Below, in pieces: positions 12,083-41,780 of a stretch of DNA of 45,168 nucleotides. The notes under the pieces are model-generated. The model was not told the DNA's origin. It was given only the letters and a program-made list of their open reading frames with translations, and searched no databases. Origin of the DNA: a virus. Where the stretch lies: positions 1 through 45,168 of the IMG/VR virus record IMGVR_UViG_3300008116_000196. The stretch is one strand, 5' to 3'. Position 1 is the first letter of the stretch, and every line of letters begins with the position of its first letter. A program made the position numbers and the translations under genes.

Positions 12083-12093
12083 GGGAGTTTAAA

Positions 12094-12816: not shown

Positions 12817-12830
12817 TAGGTAAAATCAAA

Positions 12831-15525: not shown

Positions 15526-15753
15526 ATGACCACTTACGTTAAAGTTAAAAATACTCCTTATATTCGCGACATCAATACGATGGCGCTATTAAATACTGAT
15601 CGAAAGGCAGTGAATAAGGATGAAGCATACAAACGTGAAATGGCAAAAAATAAAGAAAAAGAAAAACAAATCGCAGAGTTAAAAACTGAAATCAATGATT
15701 TGAAAGACATGGTGAAAAAACTTTTAGAAAAGGTAGAGAATTCTAATGGCTAA
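15526..15753 (+). CDS. Small coiled-coil virion-region protein (75 aa)
   Basis: The ATG at 15526 lies 1 base after the stop of the previous gene; an upstream in-frame ATG at 15415 would overlap that gene by 110 bases and is unlikely. The product begins TTYVKVKNTPYIRDINTMALLN and then becomes a highly charged Lys/Glu helix with leucine heptads (MAKNKEKEKQIAELKTEINDLKDMVKKLLEKV), a likely coiled coil. Similar short proteins, with an N-terminal 'R-D-I/L-x-T-x-A-L/I-x-N-T/N' motif, occur in the structural clusters of T4-like marine phages, function unknown. The stop overlaps the start of the following fibre gene by 8 bases, suggesting translational coupling. Confidence 0.75.
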   Translation: MTTYVKVKNTPYIRDINTMALLNTDRKAVNKDEAYKREMAKNKEKEKQIAELKTEINDLKDMVKKLLEKVENSNG

Positions 15754-16987: not shown

Positions 16988-16998
16988 AGATTAATTAA

Positions 16999-18796: not shown

Positions 18797-19309
18797 ATGA
18801 GTATGAAATTAGCCGTGTACACAAACGATGATCTGAAGAATAACGGCGGTTCTTTCGCAATCTTATTCCCAACAGGCGAACTTTCTTTCGAAGCCACCGT
18901 AGCGAAAGATATTCCTGCAGGCTCAAAATACAAGGTCGTCGATACGGATAACGAAGCAGAAAAAGCAGAACTTGATAAGGTTTTTTCATCCAATACAAAA
19001 GATGTTTCTTATTGGATCGCTTGGTCAGCTAATTTAGACGATAATTCCTCTCCAATTTCTTTTTCTATTAATATGGAAAAAGCAAAAGAATGCTTTTTAG
19101 AATATATTCGTCCATTAAGAAATAACGAATTATCTAAACTAGACGTTGAATATCAACGCGCAGATGAAGTTGGTGATGTTGCTCTAAAAGCAACAATTGC
19201 CGCTAAAAAACAAAAATTAAGAGACTTGCCATCAGATACAAGGATAGTGAATTGTACTGATTTCGATACACTCAAAACACTAACCTATGAATTTCTAAGA
19301 GATAATTGA
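18797..19309 (+). CDS. Putative tail-fibre assembly chaperone-like protein (170 aa)
   Basis: The ATG at 18797 has a strong ribosome site (AGGAG) 6 bases upstream. The 170-aa product has a small beta-rich N-terminal part (KLAVYTNDDLKNNGGSFAILFPTGELSFEATVAKDIPAGSKYKVVD) and a helical C-terminal part. The latter contains 'RPLRNNELSKLDVEYQRADEVGD' and 'IAAKKQKLRDLPSDT'. This layout, with an R-x-x-x-L near a D/W-x-x-x-x-A motif followed by K/R-Q-x-L-R-D-L/I-P, resembles phage tail-assembly chaperones encoded beside fibre genes. It overlaps the next gene by 1 base and opens the unit that holds the two longest fibres. The family call rests on pattern only. Confidence 0.5.
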   Translation: MSMKLAVYTNDDLKNNGGSFAILFPTGELSFEATVAKDIPAGSKYKVVDTDNEAEKAELDKVFSSNTKDVSYWIAWSANLDDNSSPISFSINMEKAKECFLEYIRPLRNNELSKLDVEYQRADEVGDVALKATIAAKKQKLRDLPSDTRIVNCTDFDTLKTLTYEFLRDN

Positions 19310-19641
19310 TGGCTTACACAGATTTGTATGTAGATCAGGGAGCTGACTACTTCACAAATATGGATCTAACTGAAGACGATGGGACTCCCATAAACGTCTC
19401 AGGTTACGCATTCACAGGACAAATTCGTAAATCATATTATTCAACAAACCCAACCGCAAATTTAGTTATTTCAATTGTTAACGGTGCTAATGGGAATTTA
19501 AACATTACCATGAGTTCAGCAGTAACCTCAAATATTACTCCTGGGCGATATGTCTATGACGTAAAAATGACGGATACCTCGAATGTGACTATCAGAATTA
19601 TGGAAGGCATAGTAACAGTCACACCACAGGTATCTAGATGA
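19309..19641 (+). CDS. Small conserved beta-rich tail protein (110 aa)
   Basis: The ATG at 19309 shares bases with the preceding TGA (TGATG), a typical coupling overlap; a TTG three bases earlier is less likely. The product (AYTDLYVDQGADYFTNMDLTEDDGTPINVSGYAFTGQIRKSYYS, then ITPGRYVYDVKMTD, MEGIVTVTPQVSR) is an all-beta sandwich-type protein. Similar 'T-D-L-x-V-D-Q-G' proteins occur beside fibre genes in many T4-like marine phages. It may be a fibre cap, adaptor or decoration, comparable in layout to the N-terminal domain of lactococcal BppU-type upper baseplate proteins. It overlaps the next fibre gene by 4 bases (ATGA). Function unknown. Confidence 0.72.
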   Translation: MAYTDLYVDQGADYFTNMDLTEDDGTPINVSGYAFTGQIRKSYYSTNPTANLVISIVNGANGNLNITMSSAVTSNITPGRYVYDVKMTDTSNVTIRIMEGIVTVTPQVSR

Positions 19642-22600
19642 AGATTAATCTAACAAATAGAAATACCGTCGGTACAGTTAAACTTACAACTGGCAGCGCT
19701 CCACTTGCTGGCGCAGCAGGTTCTCAAGGCGCACAAGGTGTTCAAGGTGCCCCAGGCACTCCTGGTGGTCCTCAGGGTGATCAAGGTTTTCAAGGTCGTC
19801 AAGGCGTTCAAGGCGCTCAAGGTCATCAAGGCGTTCAAGGTGCAACTGGTTCTGGCGCACAAGGTGTTCAAGGTCATCAAGGCGTTCAAGGACAACAAGG
19901 TTTCCAAGGTGTACAGGGTGCACAAGGTATTCCAGGAACATTTGCTGGAGTTGGCGCACAAGGTGTTCAAGGCGCAACAGGTGCACAAGGCGTTCAAGGT
20001 GCACCTGGTGCACAAGGCGCAGCTGGTGCAGATTCTTTCGTTCCTGGTGCAAAGGGCGACAAAGGCGATACTGGTGCACAAGGCGTTCAAGGTGCAGCGG
20101 GAGCAAAAGGTGATGTTGGTCCTCAAGGTATTCAAGGCGCACAAGGTGTTGCTGGCGTAAATGGCGCTCAAGGTGCTGTTGGCGACAAAGGTGAAACTGG
20201 CGCGCAAGGTTTTCAAGGCGTTCAAGGTTCTTCTGGAATTGCTGGTGCGCAAGGCGCAACAGGCGATAAAGGTGAAACTGGAGCGCAAGGCGTTCAAGGG
20301 GCTCAAGGTGCTGTTGGTTCTCAGGGTGCAACGGGTGCACAAGGTGTTGTTGGCGACAAAGGTGAAGTTGGCGCTCAGGGTTTACAAGGCGCACAAGGCG
20401 TTCAAGGTTCTAAAGGTGATAAAGGCGACGATGTAAATTCAATCGCTGCATTCAATCAAGCCAATAGTGCATATGATCAAGCCAATGCCGCTTACTTACA
20501 AGCCAATAGTGCATATGATCAAGCCAATGCAGCATATGATGATGCAAATACTCGCGTTCTAAAGGCTGGCGATACGATGACGGGCAACTTAAATGTTGCT
20601 GCGACGATCATCTCTCAAAATATTGTTCCTAATTTAGATGTCACCTACGATCTTGGTACTCCTACAAAACGTTTCCGCGATCTTTATTTGTCAGGAACTA
20701 CATTGTTCCTCGGCAACACTCAAGTCAGCACAACTGTTGATGATGAAATTGCAATTTCAAGTTTAACAGCAAACACAATTAATCTTGCTGGCTATAACGT
20801 TCAAACTTGGATTAACGATACAACTGAACGTGCAAATTTAAAAGTTGAAACTATTGGAGGGGAATTACTTTCAGTATCAACTTCAAATACTAATAATGTT
20901 GTTGTTGCAAATATTACAATTCGCCAAGGAAATACAACACACACTGGTGTTGTTCAGTTAAGCGATAATGTTAATAATACAAGCATAACTCTTGCTGCAA
21001 CAGCAAACACTGTTAATGTAGCATTTGAACAGGCTAAATTAGCGCGCAGTGAAGTTTTTGATCTTACTGGATTATTTACAGATTTAAACACGTTTGTTCT
21101 TAATGCATTGGTACCAACTGTAGATCTTGCTGCAAATACGGTTCGTATTTCTGCAAATGGTGGTTCAACATTAAGTAAGCAACAACTTAATTTTACAAAC
21201 ACTGCAGATGTGATTGTATCTGTTGGTGCAGGAGCAGGTGCTGCTTCTGGTAATGCGAATGTTGGATTTACATTAGGAACAACTGGTGTTGTTGCAGGAA
21301 CTTACGGTAATGCTTCTAATGTTGCGTCAGTAACTGTTGATTCAAAAGGTCGTATTACTGGTGTTTCAAATATTTCAATTGCACCATCAGGTCCTGCGTA
21401 TGATCAAGCCAATGCTGCTTATGAAGCAGCAAATACAAAACTACCAATTGCTGGCGGAACTATTACTGGAGACTTAATAGTTTCTGGCAATCTTGCTGTT
21501 CTTGGCGACAGTACAACATTAAACGTCACAACATTATCTGTTGAAGATAATGAAATTATTCTCAATTCAAATGTTACTGGTGCACCATCTCTTGATGCAT
21601 TGATTACAGTCAATCGCGGTGCGAATGCAAATGTTGCACTTCGTTGGAATGAAACTTCTGACAAGTGGGAATGGACTGATGATGGCGTAACATATACAGC
21701 ATTCTCTTCAATTTCTGGTTCTGGCGCACAGGGTGCTGCTGGCGCTCAAGGTGCACAAGGCGTTCAAGGTGCAGCAGGAGCACAAGGCGAGCAAGGCGAA
21801 CAAGGTGCTACTGGCGCGCAAGGTGTTCAAGGCGCAACAGGTGCAGCAGGAGCACAAGGTGAACAAGGTGCTATTGGTGCACAAGGCGTTCAAGGCGTTC
21901 AAGGTGCACAAGGTATTCAAGGTGCACAAGGTGTTGCAGGAACCGATACTGTTCCTATTCAAGTTGCAAATACAGCGGTTGGTGAGAGAAGAACGTTAGA
22001 TTTTAGAAGCGCAAATACTTCTAATTTAACAATTTCTGGTACTGATGATCCAACCAATAATAAAGTCATTCTTATCTTTGATAATCCTAAACTTGGCGGC
22101 AGTGGCATTTCTGCTTACGGTAACACTGAACTTTATATTTCAGATACACCACCAGGTTCAGCAAATTCAAATACTGCTCTCTGGTGGAGAGCAAATACTG
22201 GTAAATTCTACATCTACTACAATGATGGTGATAGTGTACAGTGGGTTTCACTCACACCATCCCCAGTTGTAAATACATCAAGCAATTTATTCTTTAGTGA
22301 CGCGAATACTGCTGCTTCAATTGCTACAGCAAATACTTTGTATCAAGAAAAGGCAAATCGTGCTGGCGATACGTTTACAGGTAATGTATCAGTACTGCAA
22401 AATGGAACTAAATTAAACGTAAGCAGCAGATTGATTGAATCTAATAATGATTTAACAATTAATGCTACACAATACAAAGTAAACAATATTACAATTTCTG
22501 CAAACACAGGATCAACCTCTACTGTCGCACAAACTGTTGTTGACATACTACCAACAAGCGAATACCGCACAGTCAAATATTTAATTCAAATTAAGAGCGG

Positions 22601-22799
22601 CGCTTCTTATCAAGCAACTGAAATTCTTTTATTGCATAATGGAACAACAGTTTACATGACAGAATATGCTACAGTTACTACTGGTTCTTACTTGGGTTCT
22701 TTTGGCGCTGATATAAATTCAGGTCAAATGAGACTTCTATTTGATCCAGTATTCGCTGTTAATACCCTAAATATTTCAAGAACCAAAGTACCAGTGTGA
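19638..22799 (+). CDS. Long collagen-like tail fibre with YDQAN repeats (1053 aa)
   Basis: After a 25-residue lead (INLTNRNTVGTVKLTTG) the chain runs as Gly-X-Y triplets to about residue 265, with Q the commonest Y residue and GDKGE/GAKGD units interspersed. Then come YDQAN pentad-like repeats (nt about 20449-20560: [18 protein letters not shown]), probably a trimeric coiled coil. Next are tail-fibre motifs GDTMTGNL and VTYDLGTPTKRFRDLYLSG, a domain with LRWNETSDKWEWTDDG, a second short collagen stretch (about 695-770) and a C-terminal beta domain (YISDTPPGSANSNTALWWRANTGKFYIYYNDGD). The last ~110 residues (LPTSEYRTVKYLIQIKSGASYQATEILLLHNG) look like a head domain. Probably a long trimeric fibre. 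Confidence 0.83.
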   Translation: MKINLTNRNTVGTVKLTTGSAPLAGAAGSQGAQGVQGAPGTPGGPQGDQGFQGRQGVQGAQGHQGVQGATGSGAQGVQGHQGVQGQQGFQGVQGAQGIPGTFAGVGAQGVQGATGAQGVQGAPGAQGAAGADSFVPGAKGDKGDTGAQGVQGAAGAKGDVGPQGIQGAQGVAGVNGAQGAVGDKGETGAQGFQGVQGSSGIAGAQGATGDKGETGAQGVQGAQGAVGSQGATGAQGVVGDKGEVGAQGLQGAQGVQGSKGDKGDDVNSIAAFNQANSAYDQANAAYLQANSAYDQANAAYDDANTRVLKAGDTMTGNLNVAATIISQNIVPNLDVTYDLGTPTKRFRDLYLSGTTLFLGNTQVSTTVDDEIAISSLTANTINLAGYNVQTWINDTTERANLKVETIGGELLSVSTSNTNNVVVANITIRQGNTTHTGVVQLSDNVNNTSITLAATANTVNVAFEQAKLARSEVFDLTGLFTDLNTFVLNALVPTVDLAANTVRISANGGSTLSKQQLNFTNTADVIVSVGAGAGAASGNANVGFTLGTTGVVAGTYGNASNVASVTVDSKGRITGVSNISIAPSGPAYDQANAAYEAANTKLPIAGGTITGDLIVSGNLAVLGDSTTLNVTTLSVEDNEIILNSNVTGAPSLDALITVNRGANANVALRWNETSDKWEWTDDGVTYTAFSSISGSGAQGAAGAQGAQGVQGAAGAQGEQGEQGATGAQGVQGATGAAGAQGEQGAIGAQGVQGVQGAQGIQGAQGVAGTDTVPIQVANTAVGERRTLDFRSANTSNLTISGTDDPTNNKVILIFDNPKLGGSGISAYGNTELYISDTPPGSANSNTALWWRANTGKFYIYYNDGDSVQWVSLTPSPVVNTSSNLFFSDANTAASIATANTLYQEKANRAGDTFTGNVSVLQNGTKLNVSSRLIESNNDLTINATQYKVNNITISANTGSTSTVAQTVVDILPTSEYRTVKYLIQIKSGASYQATEILLLHNGTTVYMTEYATVTTGSYLGSFGADINSGQMRLLFDPVFAVNTLNISRTKVPV

Positions 22800-22805
22800 T
22801 CATAG

Positions 22806-25800
22806 ATGTCAATACCAAATTTTCCTGATTCACCAGTAGTTAACCAACAGTTTACAGTTGGGGATGTAGTCTATGTGTGGAATGGTGCAACTTGGGATCA
22901 ACTTGTATCAGCAGTCACAGGTCCGCAAGGTTTAGCTGGAGCACAAGGCGAGCAAGGCGCACAAGGTCAAAAAGGTCAAAAAGGCGACTTTGGTGAACAA
23001 GGTTATCAGGGCGTTCAGGGTACACAAGGTGCACAAGGTGTTCAAGGCGCTCAAGGTTCACAAGGACAACAAGGTGAACAAGGCTTCCAAGGTTTCCAAG
23101 GTGAGCAAGGTTTCCAAGGCGTACAAGGTGCAACTGGAGATAAAGGCGATAAAGGCGAAACTGGCGGTACAGGTTTAGCTGGCGATCAAGGACCTCAGGG
23201 TGAAGCAGGATTCCAAGGTGCACAGGGTGTTCAAGGTTCAACTGGCGCACAAGGTATACAAGGTCATCAAGGTGTACAAGGTGCTTTAGGCGCGCAAGGT
23301 AATCAAGGCATTCAAGGTGCTGTCGGTGCGCAAGGTGAGCAGGGCTCACAAGGTTTCCAAGGGGTTCAGGGCGATCAAGGTTATCAAGGCGAACAAGGTT
23401 TCCAAGGCGTACAAGGAGACCAAGGCGAACAAGGATCACAAGGTTTCCAAGGTATACAGGGCGCACAAGGCGTTCAAGGTCAACAAGGTGCACAAGGTCG
23501 TCAAGGTGAACAAGGATCACAGGGTCATCAAGGCGAACAAGGCGCACAAGGTTTTCAAGGTCGCGATGGTAACTTTGGCGGCGCATCTTTTGAATATTCC
23601 TTCTCAGACAATATAACTGCTTCTGACCCAGGAGCAGGTTATCTAAAATTCAACAATTCTCAATTAAGTTTAGCAAATACGCTTTACATTGACGATGTTG
23701 ATACTGAAAATAATGATATTCAAAGTTTTTTAAGAACAATTGATGATTCAACATCAACGCTAAAAGGTCATTTTAAAGTATCTGAACGTGGTGCTACGTC
23801 TGAATTTGCTATTTACACGATTTCTTCTCTTACGGAAAATTCAGGATACTTTACTGTTAATGCGGCGTATGTTGAAGGTTCCGTATCGACATTTGGTAAC
23901 AATACACAAGTTATTATCACATTTGCTCGTACTGGCGATATTGGTGATCAAGGTCCACAAGGTATTCAAGGCGCTCAGGGTTTCCAGGGCGCTCAAGGTC
24001 GTCAAGGTGAACAAGGTCGTCAAGGTGAACAAGGTTTCCAAGGCGTTCAAGGAGAGCAAGGACGTCAAGGTGAGCAGGGTGTACAGGGTGAACAAGGTTT
24101 CCAAGGTGTACAAGGCGCTCAAGGCAGACAGGGACAGCAAGGCGTTCAAGGTAATCAAGGTCGTCAAGGTGAACAGGGACGTCAAGGTGAGCAGGGTCAT
24201 CAAGGTTTCCAAGGCGAGCAAGGTTCTCAAGGTTATCAAGGTGAACAAGGTCGTCAGGGCGCACAAGGTGCACAGGGCGTTCAAGGTCACCAAGGCGTTC
24301 AAGGTGCACAAGGTGCTCAAGGAGCACAAGGTTTCCAAGGTGAACAGGGTTTCCAAGGTGTACAAGGATCTGTAGGTTCTAAAGGTGAAGTTGGCGACTT
24401 TGGTGGCGCGACTTTCGACTATTTCTATCAAACAGGCACATCAAATACTGATCCTGGTATCGCAAATGTAGCATTTAATAATTCAAATCTTTCTACTGCT
24501 ACGTTCATGTACATTGACACCATCGATGCTGATGGTGCAAACTCTTACAACTATTTGCAAACAATTGACGATTCAACATCAGTAATCAAAGGTCACTTTA
24601 AAGCTGCAAATGTTGCAAACACCAATGAATATGTCTACTATTCTATTAATGGTTCACATGCTCATCAAAATGGTTACTTTGCTGTACCAGTTGCATTGCT
24701 ACAATCAACACTTGTAGGAACAGCATTCGCATCAAACACTGAATTGTATATTACATTTGTTCGCACTGGCGATCAAGGCGATAAAGGTTCACAAGGTTTC
24801 CAAGGTGTACAAGGTGAACAAGGTTTCCAAGGGGTACAGGGTGAACAAGGCGTTCAGGGCGAGCAAGGCTTCCAGGGCGTTCAAGGGCAACAAGGTTTCC
24901 AAGGTGTACAGGGTGCACAAGGTGTACAGGGTCAACAAGGTTTCCAAGGTGTACAGGGTGCTCAAGGGCGTCAAGGTGAACAAGGCGTGCAGGGCGCGCA
25001 AGGTGTTCAGGGCGAACAAGGTTTCCAAGGTCATCAAGGTGATCAAGGAAATCAAGGCTTCCAAGGTGTACAGGGTGCACAGGGACGTCAAGGTGAGCAA
25101 GGTTCCCAGGGTCGTCAAGGTGAGCAGGGTTTCCAAGGACGACAGGGTGAACAAGGCGTACAGGGTGAGCAAGGTGTTCAAGGCGCTCAAGGTTTGCAAG
25201 GTTTCCAAGGTGAACAGGGTCGACAGGGCGCTCAAGGTGAACAAGGTTTCCAGGGACGTCAAGGTGCACAAGGTGTACAGGGTTCACAAGGTTTCCAAGG
25301 CATTCAAGGCGCACAAGGTGTTCAAGGGCATCAGGGGCGTCAGGGTGAACAAGGTTTCCAAGGACCACAAGGTGAACAGGGAGTGCAGGGTGCACAAGGT
25401 TTACAAGGTCTTGTAGGTGAGCAAGGAGCACAAGGCTTCCAAGGCGTACAGGGAGCACAGGGTGCACAAGGACGTCAGGGTGAGCAAGGTTTCCAAGGAC
25501 GCCAAGGCGCTCAAGGTGAGCAAGGAGCACAAGGTGTACAAGGTTCGCAAGGTTATCAAGGTCGCGACGGCAACTTTGGTGGCGCCACATTTGATTACAC
25601 CTATAGCAGCAGCACTGCAAATACTGATCCAGGAAGTGGCTTCTTAAGATTTAATAATGCAGATCTAACCGCAGTCAATAAACTTTATATTGACAATCTT
25701 GATGACAATACATCAAACGTTTATAACTTCCTTATTACAATTGATGATTCAACATCATTAATTAAAGGACATTTTAGAGTTACAAGTAAGTTTGATTCAA

Positions 25801-28800
25801 ACAACTATATTCTCTACACAATTTCTTCTCTTGCTGTACAAAACAATTATTTTGAAGTAGATTGTAGTTATGTTTCGGGAGCAGATTCATCGTTCAGTAA
25901 CAATGATGATGTATTAATTACATTTGCTCGCACTGGCGATCGTGGCGATGTAGGTGCACAAGGTGCGCAAGGTGTTCAAGGTCATCAGGGACGTCAAGGC
26001 GAACAAGGCTTCCAAGGTGTGCAAGGCACGCAAGGTTCACAAGGCTTCCAAGGCGTACAGGGTGAACAGGGTGTGCAGGGTGCACAGGGTCGTCAAGGTG
26101 AACAAGGTTTCCAAGGAACACAAGGCGATCAAGGTTTCCAAGGTCATCAGGGTGAGCAGGGCTATCAAGGTGAACAAGGTTTTGCTGGCGTTCAAGGCGA
26201 GCAGGGTTCACAAGGCTTCCAAGGTGAGCAAGGTTATCAAGGTCATCAAGGCGAACAGGGCTTCCAAGGTGTACAAGGATCTCAAGGTACACAAGGCGAA
26301 CAAGGTTTCCAAGGAACACAAGGTGAACAGGGTTTCCAAGGTGTTCAAGGTCATCAAGGCGTTCAAGGACGTCAGGGTGAACAAGGCGCTCAAGGTTTCC
26401 AAGGCGAACAGGGTGTACAAGGTTCACAAGGACGTCAGGGTTCACAAGGTCAACAAGGCGCTCAAGGATTCCAAGGTGAACAAGGTGCCCAAGGATTCCA
26501 AGGTGTTCAAGGATCACAGGGTCATCAAGGACACCAAGGTGAACAAGGATACCAAGGATTCCAAGGCGAGCAAGGCGCTCAAGGTTTCCAAGGTGAGCAA
26601 GGTTATCAAGGCGCACAAGGTGTTCAAGGTGCACAGGGTCGCCAAGGTGAACAAGGATTCCAAGGTCATCAAGGCGATCAAGGATTCCAGGGACATCAAG
26701 GTGAACAAGGTTCACAAGGTTTCCAAGGCGTTCAAGGACAACAAGGTGTTCAAGGTGTTCAAGGTCATCAGGGTCGCCAAGGTGAACAAGGTTCACAAGG
26801 TTTCCAAGGTGAACAGGGTTATCAAGGCGCTCAAGGCGTTCAAGGTCATCAGGGACGTCAAGGTGAACAGGGCGTTCAAGGCGAGCAGGGTGTTCAAGGC
26901 GCTCAAGGCGTTCAAGGTCATCAAGGTGTACAGGGTAATCAAGGTATTCAAGGTGCACAAGGACGTCAAGGTGAACAAGGTGTTCAGGGTGAACAGGGCT
27001 TCCAAGGTATTCAAGGGGCACAAGGTGTACAAGGAGCTCAGGGTGTACAAGGAGCACAAGGCGTTCAAGGTCATCAGGGATACCAAGGCGAACAGGGCTT
27101 CCAAGGCTTCCAAGGCGAACAGGGCTTCCAAGGCGTTCAAGGTCATCAGGGATACCAAGGCGAACAGGGCTTCCAAGGTGTACAAGGTAATCAAGGTCTT
27201 GTAGGACAGAAAGGTGAAATCGGTGAATTTGGTGGAGCATCGTTTGAATACATCTTCTTGTCAAACACTGCAAACACTGATCCAGGTATTGCTAATCTAA
27301 AATTTGATTCCGCAGACATTTCAACTGCAACAAGATTGTATATTGATTTTGTTGACAGTAACAGCGCAAATGTATTCAACTATCTACAAACGATTGACGA
27401 TTCAACTTCGACAATCAAAGGTAGTTTTAAAATTGCCAACACTGCAAACGTAAACGAATTTGCTTTCTTTAGCATCAATGGTACACATGCTCATGTTGCC
27501 GATTACTTCTCCGTTCCTGTTGCACACACTAGTGGCGTAACAAGTTTCACTGATCTAACGAATGTAACGATTTCTTTCGTTCGTACTGGTGATCGTGGCG
27601 ATAAAGGCGAACAAGGTTTCCAAGGACACCAAGGTTTCCAAGGTGAACAAGGATTCCAAGGTGAACAAGGTTTCCAAGGGCATCAAGGTGAGCAAGGATT
27701 CCAGGGCGTACAAGGTTCACAAGGTTTCCAAGGCGTTCAAGGAACGATTGGTGCACAAGGTGAGCAAGGAGCACAAGGCTTCCAAGGTCATCAGGGTGAG
27801 CAAGGATTCCAAGGGCGTCAAGGCGAACAGGGCTTCCAAGGTGTACAAGGATCACAAGGGCGTCAGGGTGAACAAGGTCATCAGGGCGAACAAGGATTCC
27901 AAGGTGTACAAGGTGAGCAAGGTTTCCAGGGCGTACAAGGCGCTCAAGGTCATCAAGGCGAACAAGGATTCCAAGGTGAGCAAGGAGCACAAGGCTTCCA
28001 AGGCGTACAAGGTGCTCAAGGGCGTCAAGGAGAGCAAGGCGCTCAAGGCTTCCAAGGTGTACAAGGTACTGTTGGTGCTCAAGGCGCTCAAGGTATTCAA
28101 GGATCTCAGGGACACCAAGGCGCTCAAGGTGTACAAGGTTCTCAAGGACGTCAAGGCTATCAAGGCGAACAGGGCGTTCAAGGCGAAGTTGGTGCACAAG
28201 GTGAGCAGGGCTTCCAAGGATTCCAAGGTGAGCAAGGTTTCCAAGGCGTGCAAGGCACTGTTGGCGCTCAAGGTGAGCAAGGTTTCCAAGGCGTACAGGG
28301 TGAAGTTGGACCAGTTGCTGGACAGAATACACAAATTGTATTCAATAATCAAGACAACCCAGCTGGTTCTGCTAACTTAACATTTGATCTTGCATCAAAT
28401 ACATTTACGACACGCAATGCTCAATTTAATAATAATGTAAGTGTATCTGGACTATTAACAACAAGAAATATTGTTCCTGAGTCAAATGTTACCTACGATA
28501 TCGGTACAAGCACCAATCGTTTCCGTGACATTTATTTGAGCAACAACTCAATCTTCCTTGGCAATGCTATAATTAGTAGTGTTGATGGTAATGTCTCAAC
28601 AAACGGTATTATTGCGAATACGGTTTTCATTGGTCAAAATAATGCAAACCTCGAAGCATTAATTGGTCAGACTTACGATCAAGCCAATGCTGCATATGCT
28701 GAAGCAAATCTAAAACTTAACATTGCTGGTGGTACGATTACAGGTAGCCTTGTTGTTCAAGGTAATCTTGAAATACTTGGCAACAGCACGACACTTAATG

Positions 28801-29606
28801 TTGAGACGTTGCTTGTTGAAGACAATGAAATCATCCTCAACTCAAATGCAACTGGTGCACCATCGCTTAATGCAAGTGTAACAGTTAATCGTGGGGATCA
28901 ACCAGACACCTTCTTGCGCTGGAATGAAAATACAGACAAGTGGGGTTGGTCAGACAATGGCACAACGTTCTACTCATTTGATGATGTTCGAACACAAGCT
29001 GGTGGTGCTTATGACCAAGCAAATACTGCAACAACTGCTGCTGGTAATGCATATGGTCAAGCCAATGCTGCATATCTACAAGCCAATAATGCGTACGATA
29101 AAGCCAATGCACCAATTACGATTAAAGAAGTTTATGCAGGCAACAATACTGTTGTTAATACATTTAGCAACATCAATACGATTCAGTTCGACGCTGATTC
29201 GGGAATGGCTGTTGTTGATGAAAGTTCTAACACCGTCACTATTCAACTTAATAGTACGTTCAAGAACTGGCAAGTAAATGGCGTCAATCAACTTGTTGCT
29301 TCTGGTCTCGATACTGTCAATTTAATTTCTGGTGATAATATTCTTATCAGCGGAAATGGTAATTCAGTACCACAAAGTGTAACGTTCAGTGTACCACTAG
29401 CAAATACGACAAACACTCAAGTATTGTTTAACAACAATGGTGTGTTTGGTGGTGATGCAGACTTGACGTTTAACACCGCAAGCAATATGTTGTCAACGAA
29501 TAAACTTGCTGCTGCAAATGTTCAGTATAAGAATACAACTGGAGTAATTGTTGCCTATCAATATTATAACGATTCAGAAAATAGCATTGATACAGTGTTT
29601 ATCTAA
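22806..29606 (+). CDS. Giant collagen-like tail fibre with four interspersed modules (2266 aa)
   Basis: The 38-residue N-terminus ([32 protein letters not shown]) is a short anchoring domain also seen at the start of the 1043-aa fibre. Five collagen-like tracts (about residues 39-256, 379-531, 657-923, 1046-1474, 1597-1837) follow, almost entirely Gly-X-Gln with X = E, F, V, A, H, R, S or Y. They are separated by four ~122-residue non-collagen modules. The C-terminal ~430 residues hold [24 protein letters not shown] repeats and a [16 protein letters not shown] domain homologous to the 1053-aa fibre. The final ~150 residues are the probable tip ([22 protein letters not shown]). It is the largest gene in the window. 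The tracts total roughly 1,300 residues. Trimeric triple helix is an inference from sequence. Confidence 0.85.
23574..23939 (+). repeat. Inter-collagen module, subtype I, copy 1
   Basis: Residues 257-378 of the 2266-aa fibre. Preceded by GRDGN; begins [10 protein letters not shown], contains [23 protein letters not shown] and YTISSL, and ends ITFARTGD before collagen resumes. About 122 aa, beta-rich. Confidence 0.9.
24399..24773 (+). repeat. Inter-collagen module, subtype II, copy 1
   Basis: Residues 532-656 of the 2266-aa fibre. Preceded by GSKGEVGD; contains [30 protein letters not shown] and FAVPVA, and ends ITFVRTGD. The SINGxHxH and VPVA motifs separate subtype II from subtype I. Confidence 0.9.
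25575..25940 (+). repeat. Inter-collagen module, subtype I, copy 2
   Basis: Residues 924-1045 of the 2266-aa fibre. Preceded by GRDGN; contains [36 protein letters not shown] and [16 protein letters not shown], ending ITFARTGD. Confidence 0.9.
27057..27178 (+). repeat. 50-base perfect direct repeat within a collagen tract
   Basis: Bases 27057-27106 and 27129-27178 are identical (offset 72 bases, i.e. eight triplets). They encode [17 protein letters not shown]. The exact DNA identity points to recent duplication or homogenisation. Confidence 0.85.
27228..27593 (+). repeat. Inter-collagen module, subtype II, copy 2
   Basis: Residues 1475-1596 of the 2266-aa fibre. Preceded by GQKGEIGE; contains [32 protein letters not shown] and FSVPVA, ending ISFVRTGD. 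Confidence 0.9.
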
Positions 29607-29608
29607 TT

Positions 29609-30460
29609 ATGGCAAGATCTTCGCAAATAAAAAGTGACGGCACGTTAAATGTTTTTAGTTCACTTGATGAAGTTACTCAATCGACAATCAGTGAAAGCAA
29701 AACATATTTGCGCGCTGCCGAGTTTGATGAAGTGACAATTAGTCCATTGACGAACGGTTTAGCGCAAAGAAAAACAAATGATGGTCGAATTTTAGTTGCA
29801 AATATTTTTAATGAAATTAATATTGTAACGCGAGGATTGACATTACAATTAGATGCTGAAGAAAATGCAAGTTATCCAAACTCTGGATCAACTTGGTTTG
29901 ACATAAGTGCTGGAACTGCAAATGACGTAACATTATATAATAGTCCAACATTTACAAATAGTTCGCCAAGGTATTTTACATTTAATGGTTCAAATCAATA
30001 TGGGACGAGCAGTGGAAGAGTTCTTGGCGCGAATAACTATACGAAACAAGTTTGGTTTTATTTAAACGCTTATAATGATAATAATTTAATCAGCGGTACG
30101 AGTGGACATTTTTTATATTTCGGAACTTCGACAAATAAAGTTTATTCAGGGCATACAAATTTTGGCAATTTTATGGCATATGGTTCTACAGCAACATTTG
30201 ATTTAAACAAGTGGTATAATGTAGCATTAACGTTTGATGTTGCAGTTGGTTTTACATTATATGTAAATGGTACTCAAGATAGCACATATTCTTGGACTAC
30301 TGCATTACCAGGAGATGGTTCCACAAATATAGCCTGTTTTAGCGCTGGTGGTAATTTATTAAATGGTAGAATGTCGCAAGCACTTACTTATGATGTAACA
30401 TTAACTGCAGATGAAATTAAACAAAATTATGATCTAACTAAAACTCGATATGGGTTTTAG
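29609..30460 (+). CDS. LamG/concanavalin A-like lectin tail adhesin (283 aa)
   Basis: Residues 1-70 form a lead region. From about residue 73 the protein shows the pattern of a LamG/ConA-like jelly roll: LTLQLDAEENASYPNSGSTWFDIS, then VTLYNSPTFTNSSPRYFTFNGSNQYGTSS, KQVWFYLNAYND, GHFLYFGTSTN, KWYNVALTFDVAVGFTLYVNGTQ and a closing LLNGRMSQALTYDVTLTADEIKQNYD. Such domains bind glycans, so a surface-polysaccharide adhesin at the tail is likely. No glycosidase acid residues can be singled out. It lies 2 bases after the giant fibre and is the last gene before the next late promoter, so it may cap or accompany that fibre. Confidence 0.82.
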   Translation: MARSSQIKSDGTLNVFSSLDEVTQSTISESKTYLRAAEFDEVTISPLTNGLAQRKTNDGRILVANIFNEINIVTRGLTLQLDAEENASYPNSGSTWFDISAGTANDVTLYNSPTFTNSSPRYFTFNGSNQYGTSSGRVLGANNYTKQVWFYLNAYNDNNLISGTSGHFLYFGTSTNKVYSGHTNFGNFMAYGSTATFDLNKWYNVALTFDVAVGFTLYVNGTQDSTYSWTTALPGDGSTNIACFSAGGNLLNGRMSQALTYDVTLTADEIKQNYDLTKTRYGF

Positions 30461-30503: not shown

Positions 30504-33500
30504 ATGGCAAAATTACAAGGCAATACACGAATTTATGGTAATGTAACCGTAGATACAACAGTCATTGCCCAAACATTAAATGCGAATACAGTATTTGTGG
30601 ATGGCACAAACGTGCAGGCTCGCCTCACAAATACAGAAAGCCGAGCAAACAGCGCATTAAACGATTCTGTCTTTAAAAATGTAGCCAACACAACTGCCTC
30701 TATTTCACCTTCTTCAAATAACGATACACTTAAAATCGTTGGCGATCCAGGTGGCGTTTCTATTGTTACAGTTTCTGGCAATACAGTAAGTATTTTTACA
30801 CCAACTGTTGGTGGTGCTCAAGGTGTACAGGGTGAACAAGGCGCGCAAGGATACCAAGGTGAGCAAGGCTTCCAGGGTCATCAAGGCGAGCAGGGAGCAC
30901 AAGGTTTTCAAGGCGTACAGGGCGAGCAAGGTCATCAGGGGCGTCAAGGTTCTCAAGGTGTGCAGGGTGAACAAGGTTCACAGGGTTTCCAAGGTCATCA
31001 AGGTGAACAGGGCGTACAAGGCTCACAAGGTCATCAAGGTGAGCAAGGGTTCCAAGGACACCAAGGTGAACAAGGTCATCAGGGACATCAAGGTGAGCAA
31101 GGGTTCCAAGGACACCAAGGTGAACAAGGCGTACAAGGTGCTCAAGGCGCACAAGGTTTCCAAGGTCATCAAGGCGAGCAAGGGTTCCAAGGTGTGCAAG
31201 GCGCTCAAGGACACCAGGGCGCTCAGGGTTCTCAGGGTTTCCAAGGCGTACAGGGTGAACAAGGTTCACAAGGCTTCCAAGGACACCAAGGCGAACAAGG
31301 CGTTCAAGGTTCACAGGGTCAACAAGGTGCACAAGGTTCACAAGGTTTCCAGGGTGTACAAGGTCATCAGGGTCATCAGGGTGAACAAGGCTTCCAAGGC
31401 GTACAGGGTGAACAAGGATCTCAAGGCTTTCAAGGCGTACAGGGTGAACAAGGATCTCAAGGCTTTCAAGGTGTTCAAGGAAATCAAGGTGTACAAGGTA
31501 CAACTGGCGCCAAAGGTGAAACTGGTGAATTTGGCGGTGCATCTTTTGAATATGAATTCAGAGTCGAAACTAACGATCCAGTTAATCTTGGAAATGGATT
31601 AGTACAGTTTAATGTAAATCCATTTAATACAGCAAACACATTATACATTAGTTTCCTTGATCAAAATTCAGCGAATGTATTCAACTTCTTGCAAACGATT
31701 GATGATTCAACGTCAACAATCAAGGGCACGTTTAAGATTGCTAACACAGCAAACGTTAGTGAGTTTGCATTCTTCAGTATTAATGGATTACACACTAATG
31801 ATCTAGATCACTTCAATGTTCCAGTTGCTTGGACAAGTGGTATATCAAACCTAGCAAATACAACTGCGGTAACACTTTCGTTTGTGCGTACTGGTGATCG
31901 CGGCGACAAGGGTGAGCAGGGTTATCAAGGTATACAAGGTGCTGTTGGTGCACAAGGTGAGCAGGGAGCACAGGGCTTCCAGGGTGTTCAAGGAGAGCAA
32001 GGCGCTCAAGGTTTCCAAGGAGTTCAAGGTCATCAAGGTCATCAAGGTGAACAGGGCTTCCAGGGTGTTCAAGGTGAACAGGGCGCACAAGGTTATCAAG
32101 GTGTTCAAGGCACTATTGGTGCGCAAGGCGAGCAAGGTGCTCAAGGTCGTCAAGGCGAACAAGGTTCACAAGGTCATCAAGGTTTCCAAGGCGAGCAAGG
32201 TCATCAGGGACATCAAGGCGATCAAGGTTTCCAAGGTGAACAAGGACACCAAGGATTCCAAGGCGAACAGGGAGCACAAGGTTTCCAAGGCGTTCAAGGA
32301 GCACAAGGACGTCAAGGTGATCAGGGTCATCAAGGTTATCAAGGCGAGCAAGGTCATCAAGGGCATCAAGGCGATCAAGGTTTCCAAGGTGAGCAAGGCT
32401 TCCAGGGTCATCAAGGTCATCAAGGTGAGCAGGGTTTCCAAGGTGAGCAAGGAGCACAAGGTCATCAGGGACGTCAAGGTGAACAGGGCGTTCAAGGTGC
32501 GCAAGGACTCCAAGGATTCCAGGGTGAACAAGGACGTCAAGGTGCACAAGGTGCACAGGGTGCACAAGGTGTGCAGGGTGAACAAGGTTTCCAAGGACAC
32601 CAAGGTGAACAAGGCATTCAAGGTTCACAAGGTCAGCAAGGTGCTCAAGGCGTTCAAGGTCATCAAGGTGTACAAGGACCACAGGGCGAACAGGGTGTAC
32701 AAGGTGCACAAGGTGTGCAAGGCGATCAAGGTCATCAGGGACACCAAGGTCAACAAGGTTCACAAGGCGTACAAGGTGACGTAGGTGCACAGGGTTCTGT
32801 TGGCGCTCAAGGTTCACAAGGTGTGCAGGGCGATCAAGGTGTACAAGGTGAAGTAGGTGCTCAAGGTGCTCAGGGCGTTCAAGGTGCACAAGGTCGTGAT
32901 GGTAACTTTGGTGGCGCAACTTTTGATTATACTTTTGATACTAACACAAATGCAACAGATCCTGGAACTGGACGTTTAAAATTAAACAATAGTGTACTTG
33001 CGCTTGCAACACAACTTTATATTGATAATTTAGATGACGGTTCAACTGACATTCAAAATTTCTTAACAACAATCGACGATTCAACATCGACGATCAAGGG
33101 TCACTTTAGAATTTCAGCAAAGTTTGATTCTACAAGTTTTGCATTTTATACCATATCTGCTCTTACAAATAATTCAGGTTACTTCACCGCTAACTGTGCT
33201 TATCTTTCTGGTAGCGGTTGGTCTCCAAATAATAATGATGATGTTATAATCACGTTTGCGCGAACTGGTGACGTTGGTGACACTGGTCCACAAGGTGTTC
33301 AAGGTGCGACTGGCGCACAAGGTGCTGTCGGTGCTCAGGGTGAACAAGGTGCTGTTGGTGCTCAGGGCGATCAAGGCGTACAGGGTGCTGTTGGTGCACA
33401 AGGTGAGCAGGGAGCACAGGGTGTGCAAGGCGCTCAAGGTGCTGTCGGTGCGCAGGGTGAACAAGGTTATCAAGGACATCAAGGTTCTCAAGGCGTTCAA

Positions 33501-35309
33501 GGTGCACAAGGCGCACAAGGCGCTGTTGGTGCGCAGGGTGAACAAGGATTCCAGGGCGTACAGGGTGCACAAGGCGCACAAGGAGCTGTCGGTGCACAAG
33601 GTACAGAAGGCGCACAAGGCTCAACAGGCGATAAAGGTGGATTGCGTTATACGTTCAATACAACGGTAACGATGGCGGATCCAGGAACTGGATTAATTCG
33701 TTATAATAATTCAGCAATTGGTAGTGTAACAAAAGTAGCCATCAGCGATCTAGATGTCACATCAACAGACTTTAGCGCATATCTCTTAACTGCTGATGAT
33801 TCAACAAATGCTGTTAAGGGCTACTTGATTATTAAATCAAATAATCCTAGCGATCCTACTTCAACAATATTCCAAATCAATAGTCTTGTTGATAATGTTG
33901 GATGGGTTGAATATGATGTAACGTATGTTTCTGGCGCACGTCCATCAAGCGGTGAAGGTCTCGTAATTGAATTTGCACGATCAGGCGATAAGGGCGCTGT
34001 TGGTGCTCAAGGTGCTGTTGGTTCTCAGGGCGCTCAAGGCGTTCAAGGTGCTCAAGGTGCTGTTGGTTCTCAGGGCGCTCAAGGTGTGCAAGGCGCTCAA
34101 GGTTCTGTTGGTTCTCAGGGTGCTCAAGGCGTTCAGGGCGCACAAGGTTCTCAAGGCGTACAAGGTTCTCAAGGTCAACAAGGTGCCGTCGGTGCTCAAG
34201 GTACTCAAGGCGTACAAGGTGCTCAAGGTGCTGTTGGTTCTCAGGGCGCTCAAGGTGAACAAGGCGTTCAAGGTTCTGTTGGCGCACAAGGTGCACAAGG
34301 TTCTCAAGGTATACAAGGTGCACAGGGTGTGCAAGGCGCTAAAGGTGAGATTCCTACAGGTGCTGTGATCTACACAAGTGGTGCAACAGCACCAGTGTCG
34401 CCAGCAGAGGGTGATGAATGGTTTGATACTGACCTTGGATTGCTATTCAAATATATCAACGACGGCGACAGCACTCAATGGGTAGAAGTTGGTCCTGCTG
34501 GCTCAGGCGGCGGTGGCGGTGGCGGCGGTGCACAAGGTGCTCAAGGATTCCAAGGCGTACAAGGCGCGCCTGGTTCTGCTGCAGCAGCAATTGCTGTAGC
34601 AAGAAATTCTTTTGTTGGTGATGGTAATACAAATTCGTTTACTTTGGCAACTGCACCACTTAATGAAGATCAAGTGCTTGTATTCGTTAACAATGTATTC
34701 CAACGTAACAGCGCATACAATGTAAGTTCTACGACTCTATCGTTTGATGTGGCGCCAGATACAAATGACGTAATTGATGCTTATCATATTACTGGTACTG
34801 CTGGCGCTCAAGGTGCAACTGGTGCAACTGGCGCAAAGGGCGAACAAGGATTCCAAGGTGTACAAGGTGCATCAGGTGGTCCACAAGGTGCTCAAGGATT
34901 CCAAGGTGTTCAGGGTACTGCTGGCGCTCAGGGTTCTCAGGGTGTTCAAGGCGCAGCAGGAACAGGCACAAAGGGAGATAAGGGGGACTCTGGTTCAGCA
35001 GCAATTTCTGTAACAAGAAATTCATTCCTTGCAAATGGCGTTGCTGTTGACTTTACACTTACAACGACACCATTTAATGAAGATCACGCTCTTGTCTTTG
35101 TTGATCGCGTTCTTCAAAGAAATAACGAATATAACGTATCTTCAACAACACTCACTTTTGATGGCGCACCAGATGCAAATGCAAACGTTGACGTATTTGT
35201 AATCGCTGGAACTGCTGGTCCACAAGGTCCTGCTGGCGCGCAAGGTGTACAAGGTGCCACAGGTGCTGGTGCTGAGGTTCTCCATCCTTTCTTACTCATG
35301 GGTGCTTAA
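30504..35309 (+). CDS. Long collagen-like tail fibre with three interspersed modules (1601 aa)
   Basis: The N-terminal ~104 residues ([31 protein letters not shown]) form a beta-helix-like start different from the other fibres. Collagen tracts lie at about 105-342, 466-801, 924-1046 and 1163-1285, separated by modules of subtype II, subtype I and a diverged form. The first tracts are GxQ with E/F/H/R/S; the last two are dominated by [10 protein letters not shown]. The C-terminus holds a '[29 protein letters not shown]' domain, an eight-Gly linker and two tandem ~67-residue beta domains ([36 protein letters not shown] and its copy) separated by short collagen. It ends HPFLLMGA just before the next gene's ATG. 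Confidence 0.84.
31032..31129 (+). repeat. 44-base perfect direct repeat within a collagen tract
   Basis: Bases 31032-31075 and 31086-31129 are identical, offset 54 bases (six triplets), encoding [15 protein letters not shown]. It indicates recent duplication within the tract. Confidence 0.8.
31395..31466 (+). repeat. 36-base perfect tandem duplication in a collagen tract
   Basis: Two adjacent identical 36-base units (31395-31430 and 31431-31466) encode [12 protein letters not shown] twice. The absence of any silent difference suggests very recent slippage or unequal recombination. Confidence 0.88.
31530..31898 (+). repeat. Inter-collagen module, subtype II, copy 3
   Basis: Starts at residue 343 of the 1601-aa fibre. 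Preceded by GAKGETGE; contains [46 protein letters not shown] and FNVPVAW, ending LSFVRTGD. Its closest relative is the module in the 1043-aa fibre. Confidence 0.9.
32907..33272 (+). repeat. Inter-collagen module, subtype I, copy 3
   Basis: Starts at residue 802 of the 1601-aa fibre. Preceded by GRDGN; contains [44 protein letters not shown] and AYLSG, ending ITFARTGD. Its closest relative is the module at 25575. Confidence 0.9.
33642..33989 (+). repeat. Inter-collagen module, diverged copy
   Basis: Starts at residue 1047 of the 1601-aa fibre. It keeps the frame [39 protein letters not shown] but lacks the FGGA start and the conserved TIDDSTS block. Closest to subtype I by the YVSG and FAR-S/T-GD motifs. 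Confidence 0.7.
34599..34799 (+). repeat. C-terminal beta domain, first of two tandem copies
   Basis: Encodes [48 protein letters not shown]. The second copy lies at 35013-35213. A collagen-like linker (GAQGATG onward) separates them. Confidence 0.85.
35013..35213 (+). repeat. C-terminal beta domain, second of two tandem copies
   Basis: Encodes [48 protein letters not shown], clearly paralogous to 34599-34799 and of the same length. Confidence 0.85.
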
Positions 35310-37351: not shown

Positions 37352-37365
37352 TTGAGGTGATTTAA

Positions 37366-37614: not shown

Positions 37615-37625
37615 AGGATGATACT

Positions 37626-38648: not shown

Positions 38649-41600
38649 ATGGCAATTAATTTCCCAAATTCACCAGTAGATAACGATTCATATACCTATA
38701 ATAATCGAACGTGGGTATACAATGCTGCATCTGGTGCATGGGTCGCTCAAGGTGCGCAGGGTGCTCAAGGCGTTCAAGGTGCAACTGGAGCGCAAGGCGC
38801 GCAGGGCATTCAAGGCGCTGCTGGCACTAATGGTGCGCAAGGTGAGCAAGGTGCTACTGGTGCTCAAGGTGTTCAGGGCGCACAAGGTTCTGTTGGTTCT
38901 CAAGGCGCTCAAGGTGTTCAAGGCGCGCAGGGTGTTCAGGGCGCACAAGGTTCTGTTGGTTCTCAGGGCGCACAAGGCATTCAAGGCGCTCAAGGCGCTG
39001 TTGGTTCTCAGGGTGCTGTTGGCGCACAAGGCGCTCAAGGTGTTCAAGGTGCTCAAGGCGCTGTCGGTGCACAGGGCGCTGTTGGTTCACAAGGCGCTCA
39101 AGGTGTTCAAGGTTCTGTCGGCGCTCAAGGCGCACAAGGTGAAAAAGGTCAAAAAGGAGATACAGGCGCACAAGGCGTACAAGGAGCGACTGGAGATAAA
39201 GGTGAAACTGGTGCACAAGGTGTGCAAGGTTCAGCAGGTGCTACTGGTGCTCAAGGCGCAACAGGTTCTCAGGGCGTACAAGGAGCGACTGGAGATAAAG
39301 GTGAAACTGGCGCACAGGGTGCGCAGGGCGTTCAAGGTTCAACAGGTACAAAGGGTGACGTTGGCGAATTCGGTGGTGCGTCGTTTGAATACGAATTTAG
39401 AATTCAAACAGATGATCCTGCAACACTAGGTTCTGGTCATTTACAATTTAATGCCAATCCATTTAATACTGCAAATACGTTGTATATTAGTTTCAATGAT
39501 TCAACAAGCGCAAACATTTATAACTTTATTCAAACAATTGATGATTCCACATCAACAATTAAAGGTACGTTTAAATTAGCAAACACTGCAAATGTAAACG
39601 AATTTGCCTTCTTCAGTATTAACGGCAATCACATTCACGACGACGATCACTTCAATGTTCCAGTTGCATGGAATACTGGTGTAACAAACTTTGCAAATAC
39701 AACTGCTGTTGTCATTTCTTTGGTTCGTACTGGTGACGCTGGTGATAAAGGTGCACAAGGTTTTCAAGGCGTTCAAGGTGCAGCAGGCACTGCAGGATCA
39801 CAAGGCGCTCAAGGTTTTCAAGGCGTACAGGGTACAAATGGCGTTGATGGTGCTCAAGGCGCGACTGGCGCTCAAGGAGCACAAGGTGAGAAAGGTCAAA
39901 AAGGAGACAATGGAGCACAAGGCGTTCAAGGCGATGCTGGAGCGAAAGGTGAAACTGGCGCACAAGGTGCTGTTGGCGCTCAAGGAGCACAAGGGGTTCA
40001 GGGTGCACAAGGTCTTGTTGGTGCACAGGGTGCCGTCGGCGCACAGGGTTCTCAGGGCGTTCAAGGCGCTGAAGGTGCCGCTGGTGCTCAAGGTGCTGTA
40101 GGTGCTCAAGGTGCGATTGGTGCACAGGGTGCGCAAGGTGTCGTTGGTGCACAAGGTGAACAAGGTGCTGTGGGTGCTCAAGGCGCAACAGGTTCTCAAG
40201 GTGTGCAAGGTGCGGCAGGTTCCGCTGGCGCACAAGGTGCTCAGGGTGTACAAGGCGCGACAGGCGCTCAAGGCGCAGCAGGTGCTGCTGGTGCTCAAGG
40301 TGAACAAGGTGCTGCTGGTGCTCAGGGCGCTGCTGGCGCTCAAGGCGCAGCAGGTGCTGCTGGTGCACAAGGCGCTCAGGGCGTTCAAGGTGCGACAGGT
40401 TCTGCTGGTGCACAAGGCGCTCAAGGCGTTCAAGGTGCAACTGGCTCTGCTGGTGCTCAAGGTGCACAGGGTGCACAGGGTGCTCAAGGTGTACAGGGCG
40501 CAGAAGGAACAGCAGGTGCACAGGGTGCACAAGGCGCGCAAGGTGTTCAAGGTGCTGCTGGTACTCAAGGTGCTGTAGGTGCTCAAGGTGCACAAGGGGT
40601 TCAGGGCGCGACAGGTTCTGCTGGTGCTCAAGGCGCTCAAGGCGTTCAAGGTGCTCAAGGCGCTGTTGGCGCACAAGGCGCTGTTGGTGCACAAGGTGAA
40701 CAAGGTGCTGTAGGTGCTCAAGGTGCGACTGGCTTTGCTGGCGCTCAAGGCGCTCAAGGTGTACAAGGCGCTCAAGGTGCTGTAGGTGCACAGGGTGCTG
40801 CTGGCTCTAATGGAGCCCAAGGTGAACAAGGTGCTGCTGGCGCTCAAGGTGCACAAGGCGTTCAAGGTGCTGAAGGTGCTCAGGGCGTACAAGGTGCAAC
40901 TGGCGTAGGTGTACAGGGTGCTCAAGGTGTTCAAGGTGCTTCTGGTGGTGGCGGTAGTGGTTGGACAGTTAAAACGGCAAACTACACCGCAGTCAACAAT
41001 GATCAAATTATTGCAGACACTTCTGGCGGAGCATTTACAATTACGCTTCCAGCAACACCATCAACAGGCAATTATATTAAAATTGCAGATGGCGCTGGGG
41101 ATTGGTCAGTAAATAATCTTACGGTCGCAAGAAATGGCTCAACTATTGAAGGTGTTGCCGATGATGTAATTCTTGACATTGAAAACGTTTCTGTTGAATT
41201 TATTTACGATGGATCAACTTGGCAAGTTACTGCAACCACTGGTGCAACTGGTGCTCAAGGTCCGCAAGGCGTACAAGGTGCTGCTGGTGTAGGATCTAAC
41301 ATTATAGATCAAGTTAGTTCTGCTACAATTCATTATCCTGTTTTCACAACGTCAACTTCTGGCACGTTGACGCCAAATGTTGCAACTAGTAAATTGCAAT
41401 TCCAACCATCAATTGGTGAATTGAGCGCGAATATATTTGCCTCTAATTCTTATGTTCATTATGCGGCTAATCCGACAATTTCAGGAAGTGCACTAACATT
41501 AGATCTTCGATTGGCGAATTTCTTTTATGTGACGTTAAATAGTGATATTGTAACATTAACAGTAAACAATGTTGAACTAACTAACAACGTCAGTTCCTTT

Positions 41601-41780
41601 GCGGTGTTGTTTACTGCAGATGGAACTACAAGAACAGTTAATTGGCCAGGAAGTTTTAATTGGCCAAACGATACGGCGCCAACTATAACAGCAACAAACG
41701 GTAGAAAAGATTTATTCTTCTTCTTTACTCATGATGGCGGAACAAATTGGTATGCTCTTATTTCAGGACAAAATCTATAA
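38649..41780 (+). CDS. Long collagen-like tail fibre with one module (1043 aa)
   Basis: The N-terminus ([31 protein letters not shown]) shares the 'FP-N/D-SP-V-x-N-x-x-(Y/F)' start of the 2266-aa fibre, so both may anchor at the same kind of site. Collagen-like triplets run from about 33 to 240 and from 364 to about 770, split by one subtype II module. Ala and Val dominate X ([10 protein letters not shown]), unlike the Glu/Phe-rich tracts of the 2266-aa fibre. After a short Gly linker come a beta domain ([45 protein letters not shown]) and a ~160-residue tip ([34 protein letters not shown]). The first beta domain resembles tail-spike motifs that bind or cap. The stop overlaps the next ATG by 1 base. 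Confidence 0.83.
39369..39737 (+). repeat. Inter-collagen module, subtype II, copy 4
   Basis: Starts at residue 241 of the 1043-aa fibre. Preceded by GTKGDVGE; contains [45 protein letters not shown] and FNVPVAW, ending ISLVRTGD. Very close to the copy at 31530. Confidence 0.9.

Follow-up and report, generated by a model that had tools for sequence, protein, structure and literature searches.

Organization of the fibre gene cluster

The window analysed here is a 45,168-base IMG/VR virus record. It contains four substantial collagen-like genes, all on the plus strand (19638-22799, 22806-29606, 30504-35309 and 38649-41780), and we concentrate on the second of these (22806..29606), an open reading frame that starts with ATG and encodes a protein of 2266 aa. 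T4-type baseplate wedge genes lie upstream, at 1818-2213, 2224-4287 and 7370-8971; the closest named relatives of the protein encoded at 2224-4287 are 30–40% identical and belong to phages of Methylophilales, Pelagibacter and cyanobacteria. A large upstream protein sits at the position occupied by VrlC in Pelagibacter phage HTVC008M, with which the gene order is shared. In pelagimyophages the region behind VrlC is a host recognition cluster that holds tail fibres, and collagen repeats are listed among the structural proteins of these phages (PMC7029224).

The other genes of the cluster are also of fibre type. An L-shaped tail fibre assembly-like protein (19306..19641, plus strand; phrog_3304, E 6e-20) is encoded just before the first collagen-like gene (19638..22799), whose 1053-aa product has 102 triplets, a run of five AYxQAN heptads and a single match to Phage_fiber_2 (23.6 bits); this protein is absent from the preliminary description of this DNA. 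Directly behind the 2266-aa gene is a gene for a LamG/ConA-like lectin protein of 283 aa (29609..30460, plus strand; PF13385, 59 bits), a candidate adhesin. The second long collagen-like fibre gene (30504..35309) encodes 1601 aa with 314 triplets and three copies of the spacer domain described below, and the third (38649..41780) encodes 1043 aa with 207 triplets and one spacer. A tail fibre assembly (chaperone) protein is encoded at 41747..42313 (plus strand; PF16778, 35.9 bits; phrog_4912), and a Gly-rich PF21722 protein, which is another type of fibre, is encoded in the same cluster.

A 2OG-Fe(II) oxygenase is also encoded among the fibre genes (37626-38231). A Gly-rich ORF is found upstream of relatives of this enzyme, mostly directly, in 13 of the 17 loci for which 1 kb or more of upstream sequence is available, compared with any such Gly-rich ORF in 12 of 80 fibre loci (Fisher p 1.5e-6, which is indicative, the loci being partly related). 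No collagen ORF was found beside these relatives outside this virus in the available DNA, and as the relatives adjoin Gly-rich rather than collagen ORFs, a function of the oxygenase as a collagen-modifying (hydroxylating) enzyme is unsupported.

The collagen-like tracts

The 2266-aa protein contains five strict Gly-X-Y runs that together comprise 444 triplets; their 1332 residues make up 59% of the protein, and the Gly periodicity is unbroken throughout. Tract 1 (22920..23585; residues 39-260) has 74 triplets, tract 2 (23934..24410; residues 377-535) has 53, tract 3 (24768..25586; residues 655-927) has 91, tract 4 (25935..27239; residues 1044-1478) has 145, and tract 5 (27588..28316; residues 1595-1837) has 81, all on the plus strand. 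The Y position is dominated by Gln (400 of 444), with Val (11), Ala (8), Lys (8) and others making up the rest; the X position is more varied, with Glu (86), Phe (69), Val (68), Ala (62), Arg (31) and His (25) the principal residues. Proline occurs at 5 of the 888 X and Y positions, all five in X (1%) and none in Y. The preliminary description had reported five Gly-X-Gln tracts of about 1,300 residues in all with few prolines, and the counts bear this out on both points.

The Pfam Collagen profile (PF01391) matches the protein in 20 stretches with 683 bits (cut-off 27.2) and an E-value of 4.2e-211, which excludes chance as the source of the repeat, and it is the sole Pfam family detected. Matches to tail-fibre PHROGs (phrog_5073, phrog_6320, phrog_819 and phrog_1806) run through the repeats. 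The tracts also matched PDB entry 8zxl, a Gly-X-Y fibril ('spindlefibril/axialfibril'), by way of shared repeat composition.

The gene as a whole is not a product of misassembly, which is ruled out by the shortness of exact repeats in the window (50 bases at most) together with the tract lengths of L090, a contig assembled separately from another metagenome whose five tracts are identical in length to those of the window gene. Two further contigs of this virus depart from it in tract 5, which is longer by two triplets in L091 and is locally scrambled, with a broken frame, in L089; tract 5 is thus the place where copies or assemblies differ. Two more distant homologues have kept the C-terminal part of the protein (77–80% identity) and changed the tracts: L095 (C-terminal identity 77%) encodes 2282 aa with tracts of 148, 108, 94 and 134 triplets (484 total), and L094, the 5' end of which is missing, has tracts of at least 59, 110 and 167 triplets.

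A composition rich in Gln and poor in Pro is a common viral type. Gln fills more than 60% of the Y positions in 32% of 100 distinct viral collagen ORFs, and the 12 longest of the sampled collagen ORFs average 78% for Gln at Y and 4% for Pro at X; the corresponding values for viral collagens tabulated previously are 13% and 22% (PMC3368898, Ghosh et al. 2012). Measured against those tabulated values the 2266-aa protein is far poorer in proline, as would suit tracts that form a flexible, extended or disordered brush under host conditions, with a reach much below 380 nm. Disorder would not, however, demand a Gly periodicity that runs unbroken over 444 triplets and is also retained in relatives with other tract lengths, and tracts of this composition are widespread and include the longest ones; we regard a brush as unlikely. 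Another glycine-repeat fold, such as a polyglycine-II bundle, likewise needs Gly at every third residue, and the PF21722 protein shows that a Gly-rich fibre is encoded in the same cluster. Nevertheless, long runs of large X residues (Phe, Glu, Arg and His) with Gln in Y would be unsuited to tight bundles, and the match to the collagen profile is strong, so that such a fold is highly improbable here.

A recurring spacer domain

The five tracts are separated by four spacer domains, spacer 1 (23586..23933; 116 aa), spacer 2 (24411..24767; 119 aa), spacer 3 (25587..25934; 116 aa) and spacer 4 (27240..27587; 116 aa), all on the plus strand. Eight homologous copies of this domain of about 116 aa are present in the window, four in the 2266-aa, three in the 1601-aa and one in the 1043-aa protein. 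In a tree of spacer sequences, spacers 2 and 4 group with copies from other genes in one supported class (class B); spacer 3 clusters with copies from L094 and L095, with spacer 1 loosely placed near it (class A), and the final spacer of the 1601-aa protein represents a third class. The recurrence of the classes across paralogous genes and contigs points to reuse of spacer modules among them, as judged from these sequence groupings.

No credible match to the spacer was found by sequence in Pfam, NCBIfam, PHROGs or PDB, where matches were at chance level at most. AlphaFold2 run on spacer 3 with 39 sequences predicts one confident domain (mean pLDDT 86, pTM 0.79), a beta-rich single-chain fold of seven strands and one helix. 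Comparison of this predicted fold with the PDB gave no credible match (best E 0.044, TM at most 0.37), and a fold search of BFVD returned 48 entries at E ≤ 0.001, mostly named collagen triple helix repeat, from phages, including collagen protein A0A1D8KUV5 of Synechococcus phage S-CAM7, and from giant viruses (Marseillevirus LCMAC102, Indivirus and Klosneuvirus). A search of cellular genomes with a narrow pattern, covering the nearest spacer class only, gave one match, which lies in a metagenome-assembled genome, on a contig whose ORF resembles the viral ones.

The association of the spacer with collagen is strong but not absolute. Collagen lies on both sides of 156 of 165 non-edge copies in a sample fetched by the domain itself, and of 83 of 88 non-edge copies in a sample fetched by the collagen pattern alone; in the latter sample the spacer is present in 39 of 119 loci. 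Spacer number rises with total collagen (Spearman 0.56). The confident fold, the placement between tracts and this rise in number argue for the reading proposed below, in which the spacers hold the chains in register and may act as joints. Against this role stands the isolated Pelagibacter phage HTVC010P, which has two tandem spacers and hardly any collagen in a putative tail fibre.

Phage tails often bear accessory binding domains, and the spacers could instead be surface-binding (lectin-like or Ig-like) domains set along a collagen fibre, making many weak contacts with host sugars. The tandem pair of HTVC010P would agree with this, as would the diversity of copies within one protein (about 44–53% identical to the first copy). 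A known lectin or Ig domain was rejected, however, as Pfam, NCBIfam and PDB provide no such family or fold match, and the near-constant position between tracts and length of 116–119 aa fit a structural joint better; surface binding is possible but rather doubtful. We prefer the structural joint, and suggest tentatively, as a proposal still some way from probable, that the spacer represents a viral domain family, as yet undescribed and common to phages and giant viruses, that trimerises and re-registers the chains, giving segmented and almost proline-free rods.

Ends of the protein and the downstream lectin

The N-terminal segment (22806..22919, plus strand), which contains YVWNGATW, carries a motif (FPxSPxxN...WxWNGxxW) that opens many other collagen-like fibres, being found at the N-termini of collagen ORFs at many loci. 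This shared sequence suggests that the segment has a common role in capping or attachment.

The C-terminal part of 429 aa (28317..29606, plus strand) is about 80% identical in L094 and L095, and Synechococcus phages have tail-fibre-like proteins that match a portion of it. It includes an alanine-type heptad repeat (29001..29108, plus strand) with AYxQANx heptads at residues 2068, 2082, 2089 and 2096, whose 7-residue spacing and predicted helix make a coiled coil likely; in L095 the repeat is longer by 21 residues, or three heptads. The model of the C-terminal monomer is poor (pLDDT 41), although a helix is predicted at the heptads, and its fold was discarded as too poor for use; poor monomer models are common for intertwined fibre ends.

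The lectin gene is found in the same place in L094 and L095, behind the fibre gene, and the encoded homologues are 37–39% identical to the window protein. Set against the ~80% identity of the fibre C-terminal part this fits a fast-changing adhesin, and the lectin-like protein is likely the separately encoded adhesin or tip of the 2266-aa fibre.

The 2266-aa protein might belong to a non-tail virion appendage, such as a head or neck fibre. Such a location is nonetheless very unlikely, given that the gene lies directly behind the baseplate genes, is accompanied by chaperones of tail-fibre type, matches tail-fibre PHROGs and shares its C-terminal segment with the Synechococcus phage proteins.

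Proposed architecture of the fibre

The sequence architecture of the gene, its recurrence in other contigs and its genomic context are direct observations, and they lead us to a reading in which the protein is probably a homotrimeric, segmented collagen tail fibre of a T4-like (Kyanoviridae-type) phage, with the spacers as knobs that hold the register. Three identical chains would wind into collagen triple helices to give five segments, and between segments each chain would fold into a compact beta-rich spacer domain. The most likely arrangement is a knob formed by the three spacers, in which register is kept and from which the next triple helix restarts, and the knobs may also serve as joints. 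The end of the rod would comprise a short coiled coil of the alanine type and a beta-structured part; the lectin-like protein encoded downstream is the likely adhesin. We infer trimerisation, the triple helix, the length of the rod and the roles of spacer and lectin.

Several features argue for this reading: the 444 perfect triplets, the position in the fibre region behind baseplate genes, the fibre-assembly proteins nearby, the heptads adjoining collagen, an arrangement like that of the trimeric coiled coil in E. coli prophage collagen proteins, and a lectin gene that follows the fibre gene in L094 and L095 as well and is less conserved than the fibre C-terminal part. That the gene codes for a phage fibre containing a long rod of collagen type, as first described, is thus well supported, both by the collagen profile and the fibre cluster behind the baseplate genes and by the fibre-chaperone-like neighbours, the coiled-coil heptads and the fibre-type C-terminal part. 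Phe in the X position is thought to be unfavourable for the triple helix (host-guest peptide data), and its presence at 69 of the 444 X positions counts against the favoured reading. Proline is nearly absent, whereas it makes up about half of X in the tested prophage collagen, and stability of the triple helix is therefore not a given.

Predicted length of the rod

At 0.286 nm per residue the segments would be ~64, 45, 78, 124 and 70 nm long if triple-helical, or 381 nm together, to which the spacers and the end of the protein would add. The ~370 nm first calculated for the collagen part is thus right as arithmetic, on the condition that the tracts are triple helices, but the description made no mention of the four spacer domains, which interrupt the rod and leave segments of ~45–125 nm. 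Comparable estimates for the other two rods were somewhat low: for the 1601-aa protein, put at ~230 nm, all 942 aa would give about 270 nm and the four main tracts alone about 240 nm, and for the 1043-aa protein, put at ~170 nm, 621 aa would give about 178 nm.

The description of this rod as exceptionally long, by contrast, is unsupported. A scan for 30 consecutive Gly-X-Gln triplets found at least 119 viral stretches, and longer frames exist among viruses: L238 has 522 triplets in a complete frame of 2986 aa, L027 (a locus fetched via the spacer) has 490 in one complete frame of 2791 aa, L095, as noted, has 484, and truncated frames, missing one or both ends, reach 632 (L180), 619 (L159), 594 (L155) and 530 (L175) triplets or more. 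The 2266-aa gene is long but not exceptional; both samples were selected, and no rank follows from them.

Animal fibrillar collagen is roughly 300 nm in length, and a triple-helical fold of the tracts would make the collagen rod longer than this. Such a rod, containing 1% Pro in X and lacking it in Y, would also offer a direct test of the extent to which Gln contacts can replace hydroxyproline. The spacers would, if the proposal for them is correct, allow Gly-X-Gln collagen rods of several hundred nanometres without hydroxyproline. The spacer is in any case a widespread module, apparently without a name, and may account for the way long chains keep register; it could also serve as a component of designed collagen rods, and a family model for it would help to annotate viral fibre genes labelled merely 'collagen repeat'.

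Relationships with known collagen-like fibres

Phage collagen-like fibres themselves are already known; collagen in phage fibres has been recognized since at least 1998 (Smith, Science 279:1834, as cited in PMC5155283). The genes that PMC5155283 studied as essential for Stx2 phage formation include one for a collagen-bearing tail fibre. As far as the databases searched show, two things are new here: the recurring spacer, and the fact that very long tracts rich in Gln and poor in Pro are prevalent. A literature search, with most subscription journals outside its coverage, turned up no publication that describes this spacer or a phage collagen dominated by Gln.

The closest characterized counterparts are EPclA-D of E. 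coli prophages, which are likewise phage fibre-type Gly-X-Y proteins with low Pro in Y. For the E. coli prophage collagen a triple helix has been shown, with 111 residues forming a rod of about 30 nm and a collagen part that melts at 42 °C, and the coiled coil is trimeric and poor in Leu, Val and Ile (PMC3368898). A trimeric coiled coil beside collagen is thus established for EPclA-D, and the heptads suggest one in the 2266-aa protein. The differences are substantial: the collagen domain of EPclA has 111 residues, and none in EPclA-D exceeds 322, compared with 1332 here; the Pro-rich X that marks the EPclP proteins (48% Pro in X, with 14.5% Gln in Y, in EPclA-D) gives way to 1% Pro and 90% Gln; and the four spacer domains are a further difference from EPclA-D. 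The PfN, Pf2 (Phage_fiber_2) and PfC domains of EPclP proteins were not found in the 2266-aa protein using Pfam. Its long Gly-X-Y sequence above the Pfam cut-off and its place in a tail-fibre module are nonetheless those of a phage collagen-like tail fibre.

The T4 long tail fibre consists of four beta-rich proteins without collagen. The fibre proposed here would resemble it in being long, trimeric and borne on a T4-type baseplate. No gp34, gp36 or gp37 family is present among the best 25 of 40 PHROG matches or in the Pfam results. The collagen-like tail-fibre PHROGs are likewise collagen-rich phage tail or fibre proteins, although the spacer alone has no credible PHROG match. The Gly-X-Gln fibres of uncultivated viruses (L027, L095, L180, L238 and others) have the same composition and the same or greater length, and several of them carry the same spacer; these fibres differ in their tract lengths and ends.

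Collagen-like stretches and another repeat type

Short collagen stretches are also present in other genes of the window. A baseplate-type structural protein (4289–7363) has 13 Gly-X-Y triplets at residues 81–119, and two neighbouring genes (15746–18738), coding for proteins of 413 and 579 aa, each contain a stretch of 17 triplets. The stretch lies at residues 197–247 in both of these adjacent gene products, which suggests that the two genes arose by tandem duplication. A collagen-like orf in another contig, L019 (8837–12670), carries the same spacer domain as the window's fibres; Thr occupies the X position in 193 of its 231 triplets and Gln is absent from Y, a distinct repeat type. The counterpart of the 1043-aa fibre gene in L137, which represents the same virus as the window, is present as two overlapping frames (10289–13317) that split inside the collagen tract; this is either a real variant or a repeat-induced assembly error.

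Genes neighbouring the fibres

A gene for a 2OG-Fe(II) oxygenase (PF13759) comes after a glycine-rich fibre-type gene (PF21722; the pair spans 35648–38231), and the oxygenase is a possible modifier of a Gly-rich adhesin. An upstream Gly-rich orf is present at 13 of the 17 loci of oxygenase relatives with at least 1 kb of upstream sequence. Downstream of the 1043-aa fibre gene and its chaperone gene lies a gene (42329–45166) whose product, a beta-propeller protein with RCC1 repeats, is at least 946 aa long; it extends past the window end and is possibly another fibre tip.

The VrlC-like protein is represented by three successive orfs (8984–15524: 8984–12082, 12094–12816 and 12831–15524), all of which match phrog_358, in order, whereas in the Pelagibacter phage HTVC008M it is a single 2001-aa orf.
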